Below, piece by piece: positions 22,688-25,920 of a DNA stretch of 34,783 nucleotides. Both the position numbers and the translations under genes were made by a program. The notes under the pieces are model-generated. The model was given only the letters and a program-made list of their open reading frames with translations, made no database searches and was not told where the DNA came from. Source of the DNA: Acidobacteriaceae bacterium (GTDB lineage Bacteria; Acidobacteriota; Terriglobia; Terriglobales; Acidobacteriaceae); contig PLQW01000090.1 in NCBI GenBank assembly GCA_003160215.1, forward strand, positions 80,307 to 115,089, given 5' to 3'. Every line of letters starts with the position of its first letter. The stretch's first letter is position 1.

Positions 22688-23662
22688 TCAGACCGACGGC
22701 CGTACGGTTTCCCGGGAGGAAACCAGTTCGGCAGCTTCTTTCGCCACTGCGGGATCGTCTCCGAAGGCCGCGAGCCAGGTGACGTCGGGCTCGCGGCGAA
22801 ACCATGTCATCTGCCGCTTGGCGTAGTTGCGATGCCCTTGCTGCGTCGCCGCCAGCGCCTGCTCGCGCGTAAGTTCTCCGCGCAGGAATTGTGTGGCCTG
22901 CTTGTAGCCGAGTGAGTCCAGTGGCGTGACGCTCTTGCGCTCGCCGTATCGCGCGAGCAGAGATTTTGTTTCTTCGATCAAGCCGTTGTCGAACATCTGG
23001 CAGGCCCGCTGATTGAGGCGCGCGTACAGCGCCTCGCGCTCCGGATTGAGCCCGATCCGCAGAATGCGAAATCCGCGCAAGGGATCGCGCCCGCGTAGCT
23101 CCCACAACTGGCTCATCGGCGCACGCGCAGCCAGGCATACCTCCACGGCGCGAATGATCTTGGGTGCGTCGTTAGGATGAATCTTCGCCGCAGCCGCGGG
23201 ATCCAGGCGAATGAGCACCTTGTGCAGATGAAGCGAGCCGCGCTCCTGCGCGCGTTCGCGTAAGCGTTCGCGCAATTCTTCCGAACGTTGCGGCCCTGGG
23301 AAGAGCCCGTCCAACAGCGCTCGCAAATAAAGACCCGTGCCACCAACTACGATGGGAAGCCGCTGGCGACCGGCGATTTCCTCAATGGCTGTTCTCGCCT
23401 GTCGCGCATACTCACCTGCGGTGAACGGCTGGTCGGGCTCAGCCACATCGAGAAGATGATGCGGCGCCAGCGCCCGTTGTTGCGGTGTTGGCTTGGCCGT
23501 TCCAACCTCGAAGTGACGATAGATGGCCACCGAATCGCAACTGACCACTTCGCCGGCGAACTGTTGCGCAAGAGCGATCGCGAGAGCCGATTTGCCCGAA
23601 CCTGTCGGTCCAAGAATAACGACAAGGAGCGGCTCAGATTGGATCGGAGGCAGAGTGCTCAT
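22688..23662 (-). CDS. miaA: tRNA dimethylallyltransferase
   Basis: LLVVILGPTGSGKSALAIALAQQFAGEVVSCDSVAIYRHFEVGTAKPT; IVVGGTGLYLRALLDGLFPGP; RNYAKRQMTWFRRE. Confidence 0.96.
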   Translation of the reverse strand: MSTLPPIQSEPLLVVILGPTGSGKSALAIALAQQFAGEVVSCDSVAIYRHFEVGTAKPTPQQRALAPHHLLDVAEPDQPFTAGEYARQARTAIEEIAGRQRLPIVVGGTGLYLRALLDGLFPGPQRSEELRERLRERAQERGSLHLHKVLIRLDPAAAAKIHPNDAPKIIRAVEVCLAARAPMSQLWELRGRDPLRGFRILRIGLNPEREALYARLNQRACQMFDNGLIEETKSLLARYGERKSVTPLDSLGYKQATQFLRGELTREQALAATQQGHRNYAKRQMTWFRREPDVTWLAAFGDDPAVAKEAAELVSSRETVRPSV

Positions 23663-23854
23663 TCAACGCGCACCCCAGGGAATGGTCCGGCCGAAACGGA
23701 AGAACGCCAGGGCAAGGATGAAGACCACAAGGACGAGAAGGCCTAAAACTTTCGCGCGCTCACGCGAACGATATCGCGCCTTCCAATCTGCATCATGCTC
23801 GCGAGCATCGGAGTCAGGCTTTGATCCGGGCTGCTGGCCGGGGTTCACAGCCAC
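23663..23854 (-). CDS. Small single-TM protein
   Basis: 63-aa ORF with VLGLLVLVVFILALAFF, directly abutting the miaA start. Confidence 0.6.
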   Translation of the reverse strand: MAVNPGQQPGSKPDSDAREHDADWKARYRSRERAKVLGLLVLVVFILALAFFRFGRTIPWGAR

Positions 23855-23877
23855 ATTCTACGCGTGAGAGTTGGCAC

Positions 23878-23894
23878 TGGTGCAGTTTGAATTC
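23878..23894. repeat. Left 17-bp inverted repeat tggtgcagtttgaattc of the two-gene cassette
   Basis: Perfect inverted match to gaattcaaactgcacca at 24813-24829. Confidence 0.9.
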
Positions 23895-23950
23895 TAGCGG
23901 CCTTGAACGCCTCTAACGGGACAAAGCTGGTAAACTTTCCTTGATCCTAG

Positions 23951-23975
23951 CGCACCCCTAATATAGGCTGGTGCG
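23951..23975. promoter_or_regulatory. Operator-like dyad cgcacc-N13-ggtgcg overlapping a TAATAT -10-like hexamer
   Basis: 6-bp perfect arms upstream of the cassette's first ORF. Confidence 0.4.
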
Positions 23976-24043
23976 TCTACTTAGATGTGCCGTTGTATGT
24001 GTGTGCGCGTCCGGACCCTTCCTCTGGGGCGGGAGAGAAGCCA

Positions 24044-24556
24044 GTGGCTACCGCAAGCGAAGTCCTCAACAACTTTGGAATCGATAATTGGAACGCTAAG
24101 GTGTACGGCAGCCTCTCGACGGCTGCGCAGCTCTCGCTCTTAGTGAAAAATCGCGCCCAGGCGTTAAGGATGTCATACCTTCTCTGGAAGCTGAACTCGC
24201 AAACCGCAAAATTCTTTCAGGAAGTGGACGACGTTATGACGGGGAAACACGTCGCCGCGCAGACGCAGCCCTGTGAACCTATTTCACTCGAAAGGCTTGA
24301 ACAATCGAGAGATTCCTTGATCCAGCTCGGAATCAACCTAGGCAGGATTTACGAGGATGCGAGACGGAACAGATTAACCAATCATTCGCTGATTGCCGGA
24401 CCCGTAACCGCTCTTCGGGCACACGCCGATCATTTCCTTGAATTGGCAGAGTGGTTCGATTCGTTCCAACACATGGACGAGATCGAGCAAGCGTTTGCCA
24501 GCGCGCGCGAGGAAAAGCGCCTAGGCGAGGTGTACGACTTATCGCAGGTCCAGTGA
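24044..24556 (+). CDS. Unassigned ~170-aa helical protein, first gene of a putative toxin-antitoxin-like pair
   Basis: GTG 24044 preceded by gggagag SD; stop directly abuts the toxin ORF. Confidence 0.7.
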   Translation: MATASEVLNNFGIDNWNAKVYGSLSTAAQLSLLVKNRAQALRMSYLLWKLNSQTAKFFQEVDDVMTGKHVAAQTQPCEPISLERLEQSRDSLIQLGINLGRIYEDARRNRLTNHSLIAGPVTALRAHADHFLELAEWFDSFQHMDEIEQAFASAREEKRLGEVYDLSQVQ

Positions 24557-24814
24557 TTGGCGCTGAAAGTCCAACTCGCGGGCACAGCGTTCAAATATCT
24601 CAACTCTCTCGACAAGCCCACAAGAGCCAGAATTAGGGACAAATTGGAGGCGATTGCGAAGGCCCCTGAAGACCCTCGCCTCTCTTACCCTCTCTCGGCC
24701 AGCACCAAGAGAAGCACCCGCATTGGCCCTTACAGGGTCCTATTCGAAATCGACGAGGAAACTCTTTTCGTTGCTCATATCGCTCCCCGGGGACAGGTTT
24801 ACCGTAAAGCCTGA
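24557..24814 (+). CDS. RelE/ParE-superfamily toxin-like protein
   Basis: 85 aa; FKYLNSLDKPTRARIRDKLEAIAKAPEDP...RIGPYRVLFEIDEETLFVAHIAPRGQVYRKA matches the RelE/ParE pattern. Confidence 0.85.
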   Translation: MALKVQLAGTAFKYLNSLDKPTRARIRDKLEAIAKAPEDPRLSYPLSASTKRSTRIGPYRVLFEIDEETLFVAHIAPRGQVYRKA

Positions 24815-24829
24815 ATTCAAACTGCACCA
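24813..24829. repeat. Right 17-bp inverted repeat gaattcaaactgcacca of the two-gene cassette
   Basis: Perfect inverted match to 23878-23894; overlaps the toxin stop codon. Confidence 0.9.
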
Positions 24830-24840
24830 CAGCGTGGGAG

Positions 24841-25920
24841 CTATTCGATATCGCCCTTTTGCGGGTTGTAGTAGAAGCGGAAACGCAATGCCAGATAGGG
24901 AGCGTGATATTCCGATGGCAACGGAGCGAACGGGTTCGAGGCGGTGATTCCGCCCCAGGCGGCGCGATCCAGCGACACGTCGCCCGACACTCCAGTGATC
25001 TTCATGCCTGCCACCCTGCCATCCGGCAGGATCGCGAACTCGATGGCAACCTTGCCGCGTTTGAGCAGTGGGGCACGCGCCGCTTCGGGGATGATGGTGT
25101 ACCAGTTTCTGCGCACGGCATCGACAACGCGGGAGAGATAAGGCCCGAAGTCAACGCCCTGGGTGTCGCTCAATACATCCAGGGCCCCTAGCGTCCTCGC
25201 TCTTCCACCCGGACCCGCCCCGTAATCGCCGCCACCACCGCCGTAAGAGCCGCCGCTGCCGCGATGCTCGGCAACCGAACGAGCGGCCTGCGCCGTGAGG
25301 TCGCCCGGCGTCTTCATCATCTGCGCGAAGTCAATCTGCTTGCCGCTGCCTTGATCTGGCATGGGCAGCTTGGGATTCGCCTGCGGCGTGGCCGACTGCA
25401 TCTGTGCCATCTGTTGCGACGGGTTCGGTTGCTGGCTGCCTTGCGGCGGTGGCGTCATCTGCGCCGACTGTGCGGGAGGCGCCGGCGGCCCTGCACGCCG
25501 TAACTCCTCCAGCGTCTTTTTGTCGATCGACGGATGCTGGCTCATCGCGATGCGGTTCTTGTCGGAAAGCTTGTCCGTCTTGGGCGCAACTTTGGGCGCT
25601 TTCTGCAGGTCGGGTGGCAGATCGAGATAGGTCATGTTCTGGTTCTTCATCAGGTCGGCCGTCGTGGCCAGATCGATGCTCTTGTAGCCGAAAATCTTCG
25701 GTGACATGACCAGAAAGATCACCACCATCATGTGCACGACGACGGAAATCCAGAAGGCTTCGCGCAGGCGCGAGCGCTCTAGGTCATCCTCTAGTTGGAG
25801 CAGCAGATGTGGCGTGAGGTCCAAGCCGGCAGGACCGTTGTCAGCCCACAAGGCGAGCTGCTGTTCTTCCTTGGTAGGGAGTTCTGTCGGTCTCTCTGGC
25901 GGTATTAAGATTGAAGCCAT
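24841..25920 (-). CDS. TonB-family energy transducer-like protein
   Basis: Single N-terminal TM (FWISVVVHMMVVIFLVM), Pro/Gln-rich linker, TonB-like C-terminus (VAIEFAILPDGRVAGMKITGVSGDVSLDRAAWGGITASNPFAPLP). Confidence 0.85.
   Translation of the reverse strand: MASILIPPERPTELPTKEEQQLALWADNGPAGLDLTPHLLLQLEDDLERSRLREAFWISVVVHMMVVIFLVMSPKIFGYKSIDLATTADLMKNQNMTYLDLPPDLQKAPKVAPKTDKLSDKNRIAMSQHPSIDKKTLEELRRAGPPAPPAQSAQMTPPPQGSQQPNPSQQMAQMQSATPQANPKLPMPDQGSGKQIDFAQMMKTPGDLTAQAARSVAEHRGSGGSYGGGGGDYGAGPGGRARTLGALDVLSDTQGVDFGPYLSRVVDAVRRNWYTIIPEAARAPLLKRGKVAIEFAILPDGRVAGMKITGVSGDVSLDRAAWGGITASNPFAPLPSEYHAPYLALRFRFYYNPQKGDIE

Follow-up and report, generated by a model that had tools for sequence, protein, structure and literature searches.

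A gene pair resembling a toxin-antitoxin module between IS1-related ends in a genome of the Acidobacteriaceae

Why are two plus-strand genes in an Acidobacteriaceae bacterium, surrounded by minus-strand genes, enclosed by a perfect inverted repeat? The preliminary description of the 34,783-nucleotide stretch of DNA analyzed here (the window) had proposed a discrete, possibly mobile cassette. The 17-mers at positions 23878-23894 and 24813-24829 were confirmed as perfect reverse complements separated by 918 nt, and the window contained no other match to the 17-mer at up to three mismatches (0.07 expected). In the 5.34-Mb draft genome to which the window belongs, the exact 17-mer was restricted to this locus. 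Its first 13 bases (TGGTGCAGTTTGA) occurred nine times, compared with about 0.2 occurrences expected as estimated from length and none for the reversed control. The concern that the repeat might be a common genomic word was thus not borne out, and a chance origin of the 13-mer was rejected. The contexts of the nine occurrences shared a longer consensus, GGTAGTGGTGCAGTTTGAA. A terminal inverted repeat with this consensus has the perfect 17-bp repeat as its core; the true repeat is longer than 17 bp and imperfect outside the core. The motif was carried by all nine genomes of the genus that were searched, by 22 of 61 relatives overall and by at least 115 stretches of public genomes, mostly from Terriglobia. 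The transposable-element family with GGTAGTGGTGCAGTTTGAA ends is widespread in Terriglobia (Acidobacteriota).

In the fetched loci, the motif formed 57 inward-facing pairs but only one outward-facing pair when ends within 3.5 kb were paired. Perfect flanking duplications of 8 bp were present in 26 of the 57 pairs, and 36 pairs showed at least seven of eight identical positions, whereas widths of 5-7 and 9-12 bp gave no more than one perfect duplication each. Forty distinct elements with at least 6/8 duplication ranged in size from 88 to 3230 bp and had inserted into targets of varied sequence. Half of them (20/40) were shorter than 400 bp, seven spanned a full-length homologue of the transposase P0003, and the middle group contained passengers and no full transposase. 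Furthermore, the family sequences included palindromic inserts of 27-41 bp consisting of two abutting ends with almost no interior, bordered by 8-bp duplications matching at 8/8 or 7/8 positions (L024, L082, L083, L084, L098, L106, L111, L115, L123, L127, L142 and L145). They look like scars of near-precise excision or collapsed elements.

Placed in the register of this family, the element in the window extends from 23873 to 24834 (962 bp). The left terminal inverted repeat (GGCACTGGTGCAGTTTGAATTC; 23873-23894, plus strand) has two mismatches to the GGTAGTGGTGCAGTTTGAA consensus in its first 19 positions. The right one (24813-24834, minus strand) has three mismatches to the 19-bp consensus, all within the outer 4 bp. 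Where the family has GGTAG, the outer ends read GGCAC on the left and CGCTG on the right (other strand). No obvious target-site duplication had been recognized before; one of 8 bp is nevertheless present in decayed form. Its left copy TGAGAGTT (23865-23872) shares six of eight positions with the right copy TGGGAGCT (24835-24842), which is 7/8 identical to the empty-site sequence and runs into the stop codon of a convergent TonB-like gene. Adjacent to the left repeat, a subterminal segment containing GGCCTTGAACGCC and GTAAACT (23895-23935, plus strand) is common to other family elements in the genus, as judged from an alignment of nine left ends and a match of 83% over 41 nt, overlapping the terminal repeat, with G005:C117.

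As described before, exactly two plus-strand genes are bracketed by the repeats. Gene 1 (P0001, 170 aa) extends from 24044 to 24556 and gene 2 (P0002, 85 aa) from 24557 to 24814. For gene 1, the GTG at 24044, which follows GGGAGAGAA, was preferred over the start of the open reading frame at 23987; gene 2 begins with TTG at 24557, immediately 3' of the gene 1 stop. The right repeat indeed starts inside the stop codon of gene 2, overlapping the last two bases of the TGA at 24812-24814. Upstream of the pair, a stem-loop or palindrome (TGGTGCGTCTACTTAGATGTGCCG; 23969-23992, plus strand) lies in a leader position and is conserved in front of the homologous pairs of the relatives G001 and G007; it might serve as an operator. 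Scanning the element for promoters revealed no sigma-70-type site. The absence of a transposase held true, and no transposase remnant was found within 23873-24834 either. The neighbors are all encoded on the minus strand: a 63-aa open reading frame (23663-23854) and miaA (22688-23662) on the left and the TonB-like gene (24841-25920) on the right, both names being read from the translations.

Empty sites in close relatives had been suggested as a check on mobility, and genes standing at this position without the repeats in all relatives as the contrary outcome. Precise empty sites were found in three genomes of the same genus (G005, G007 and G008), which lack the insertion. Their sequences align to the joined flanks with one 8-bp target copy and no other gap. 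As the flanks are contiguous in these genomes, with a single TGGCAGCT at the insertion position, an insertion occurred at the window locus, and its ancestral target was a single stretch of 8 bp. The TonB-like gene now lies on one side of the element and the 63-aa open reading frame and miaA on the other. Moreover, the empty sites confirmed the register of the 6/8 duplication. Judged by spacing, G003, G004 and G006 carry no insert of this size either. At the same intergenic site, G001 contains approx. 490 bp of unrelated sequence (L186, G001:C169).

Homologues of both genes were found side by side in G001 (approx. 52% and 65% identity for genes 1 and 2, respectively), G007 (51% and 80%) and G235 (26% and 52%). 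The flanks of these three loci show no mutual similarity, and DNA similarity between G001 and G007 does not extend beyond the pair and approx. 75 bp of its leader. G007 thus has an empty site at the position of the window element, yet it possesses the pair at another locus. In G001, the core of the terminal repeat (TTCAAACTGCACCA) follows directly after the toxin stop; none of the homologous pairs at other loci retained two clean ends. Relatives of P0001 are rare. Of 300 genomes from the family, four contained them, and among 396 genomes sampled across the phylum only the window's own copy was detected. These data demonstrate that the gene pair moved as a unit between independent loci. The notion of a discrete, possibly mobile cassette was therefore substantiated by empty sites in three congeners, by two congeners in which the pair occupies other loci and by 39 further elements that have the same ends and are flanked by duplications of 8 bp.

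What does the element carry? The assignment of gene 2 to RelE/ParE-like toxins was corroborated by a match to PF05016 (E=8e-8; 33.2 bits compared with a cut-off of 23) and to the RelE-like toxin PHROG 1213 (E=1.9e-12), which identify its predicted product as a member of the ParE/RelE toxin superfamily. For gene 1, Pfam, NCBIfam and PADLOC yielded nothing, PHROG matches stayed below threshold and no PDB match was convincing. No relatives of P0001 were found in plasmids, phages or viral contigs. A single-sequence AlphaFold2 model was all helical with low confidence (pLDDT 59). From its position and its conserved pairing with the toxin gene, gene 1 probably encodes an antitoxin. The element could also be mobile while its cargo is no working toxin-antitoxin pair, gene 1 coding for some other accessory protein or the toxin being inactive. 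The lack of database matches for gene 1 and its poorly predicted fold would fit such a scenario, which we regard as unlikely: gene 2 exceeds the PF05016 cut-off, the two genes remain neighbors in three relatives, even at identities as low as 26%/52%, the frame of gene 1 is open in all relatives found, and YhaV and HicA toxin genes are carried by other elements with the same ends.

In L058 and L089, both with family ends, a YhaV-like toxin gene is preceded by a gene that is Phd/YefM-like or unnamed. A further YhaV-like toxin gene lies between family ends in L161, where the duplication matches at only 4/8 positions, and L109 carries a HicA toxin. Other cargo of the family comprises dCTP deaminase-like, NYN, DUF998 and trypsin-like proteins. 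Many left ends contain a standard leader, AAACT..ATG, approx. 60 bp into the element (25 of 189 unique ends compared with two in a shuffled control; among them L003, L004, L006, L011, L013, L041, L070 and L161). Because of this leader, the start of the cargo genes is fixed in position, and the genes are possibly leaderless. Differing small cargo proteins (L003, L004, L064, L155 and L161) end in a common C-terminal tail like SQAAARIVREATE. Several of the tail-sharing proteins exhibit Zn-ribbon-like CxxC motifs, and the two that were tested had no Pfam match.

The transposases of the complete elements point to the source of mobility. Four of them, including P0003, scored above the gathering cut-off of PF03400 (DDE_Tnp_IS1). 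The NCBIfam IS1 model was their best match and remained below its equivalog cut-off (56-58 compared with 100 bits), which is why we use the name IS1-related. In L086 and L160 the transposase is split into two frames. Transposase-bearing elements such as L113 and L136 share the 19-bp consensus with the ends in the window, which deviate from it by two and three mismatches. An intact transposase bounded by exactly the end class of the window was not found in its own draft genome. The element L217 of a congener is intact (2666 bp, 8/8 duplication) and belongs to a neighboring end class. End classes differ in the triplet following GGTAGTG (GTG, GGT, GCT, TCT or TCC; L109, L165, L209, L211, L217 and L232) and may reflect separate transposase specificities. 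The passenger elements L080, L081 and L089 keep only the last 26-55 transposase codons, suggesting internal deletion as the route to non-autonomous copies.

Taken together, we consider it very probable that 23873-24834 is an old, passenger-only, non-autonomous IS1-related element that has lost its transposase and was presumably mobilized in trans; it can be called a mobile insertion cassette or a transporter IS lacking its transposase. Several features count against this interpretation: the copy in the window encodes no transposase, no intact one bounded by exactly its end class was found in its own draft genome, the duplication reaches no more than 6/8, the outer ends are mutated, and two clean ends are missing from the homologous pairs at other loci. 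The mechanism, which the preliminary description had left open, most likely involved a cognate transposase acting in trans, as the shared ends suggest; the mobile nature of the element itself follows from the insertion data. The empty sites show that the segment was inserted, with duplication of 8 bp, next to the TonB-like gene and the 63-aa open reading frame upstream of miaA; the enzyme that recognized the GGTAGTGGTGCAGTTTGAA ends would have been an IS1-type DDE transposase encoded elsewhere. The cargo is a ParE/RelE-type toxin gene behind a gene that probably encodes the antitoxin and has a conserved leader of its own. The expected effect of the pair would be that the host becomes addicted to the insertion or that the element maintains itself selfishly. 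Since the outermost bases of both ends have decayed, the copy in the window is probably fixed and no longer mobile.

Two tandem arrangements were observed in the same genome (G000:C104:16161-16876, L203; G000:C179, L204). Between neighboring elements lies just one 8-bp target copy, which both share, GGAAAAGA in one case and CCTGCTTT/CCTGTTTT in the other, as if one element had inserted exactly beside the end of another. Such arrays could also be expected if the repeats were recombination sites around a movable pair, as in an Xer/pdif-type module or an integron-like cassette, for which toxin-antitoxin pairs are typical cargo. The probability of a site-specific recombinase cassette is nonetheless very small. 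Exact 8-bp duplications at varied targets are the mark of a DDE enzyme and not a product of tyrosine recombinases, the complete elements encode an IS1-related transposase instead of a recombinase, and the target duplications together with the empty sites refute a cassette of this type. That the repeat is merely an operator or convergent terminator palindrome of the pair, as the location of the right arm between convergent stops and of one arm in the leader region might suggest, has a negligible probability and is refuted by the 8-bp duplications and by the joint absence of both arms and the genes from the empty sites, the same sequence also occurring at many unrelated loci with very different cargo.

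The reading as an IS1-related passenger element has implications beyond this locus. Toxin-antitoxin pairs can spread by IS1-related elements reduced to ends and cargo. Such elements lack a transposase and are therefore overlooked by annotation pipelines that seek transposases. With the 19-bp end consensus and the rule of an 8-bp duplication, members of the family can be searched for throughout Acidobacteriota. In the pair, moreover, a ParE/RelE-type toxin is accompanied by a candidate for a new antitoxin family. In the literature searched, with ISfinder and most subscription journals outside it, no description of toxin-antitoxin cargo in IS1-related elements, transposase-less ones included, was found. 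A more far-reaching idea, which we put forward tentatively and consider rather doubtful at present, is that Terriglobia host an IS1-derived gene-cassette system with interchangeable small cargo, tandem insertion and frequent 27-41-bp scars, and that gene 1 represents a new antitoxin family. Such a system would be made up of non-autonomous elements with standard ends, in many of which the AAACT..ATG leader would express the cargo, toxin-antitoxin pairs included.

Compared with type II modules of the ParDE and RelBE types, the pair shares the toxin superfamily, the upstream partner gene and the conserved adjacent operon layout, whereas the partner comprises 170 aa, is predicted to be helical and falls into no known antitoxin family. 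Like members of the IS1 family, the elements have a DDE transposase with the C-terminal PF03400 domain, a short target duplication of fixed length and ends that open with GGT. Comparison with the end of E. coli IS1 (GGTGATGCTGCCAAC, as verified in annotated copies) gives GGT..TG.TGC as the common pattern. Duplications of IS1 measure approx. 8-9 bp. Classical IS1 encodes its transposase in two overlapping frames, the present elements in a single uninterrupted open reading frame of approx. 270-295 aa. Also unlike in the IS1 family, passengers are present, and a transposase is missing from most of the sampled copies. As the element in the window has none of its own, it is not an autonomous IS; matching ends, the fixed-length duplication and the IS1-type family transposase place it among non-autonomous IS1-related elements. 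Tn3-family transposons are a well-known setting for toxin-antitoxin passengers (PMC7157771). These transposons and TIMEs (PMC4133298) resemble the present family in carrying ParE/RelE-class and other type II passengers and in having non-autonomous derivatives with shared ends. Tn3-family elements, however, generate duplications of 5 or 6 bp, possess ends of approx. 38-40 bp and carry their toxin-antitoxin genes by the resolvase/res module, while the present elements show 8 bp and ends of approx. 19 bp, and no resolvase was seen in them. The 8-bp duplication and the IS1-type transposase set them apart from the Tn3 family. Mobile insertion cassettes (MICs) and transporter ISs have already been described (PMC3129680), and the arrangement found here corresponds to theirs: passengers lie between IS ends and are presumably mobilized in trans where the transposase is missing. 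What distinguishes the element in the window from MICs and transporter ISs is that its ends are IS1-related and that its cargo is a two-gene, toxin-antitoxin-like operon.
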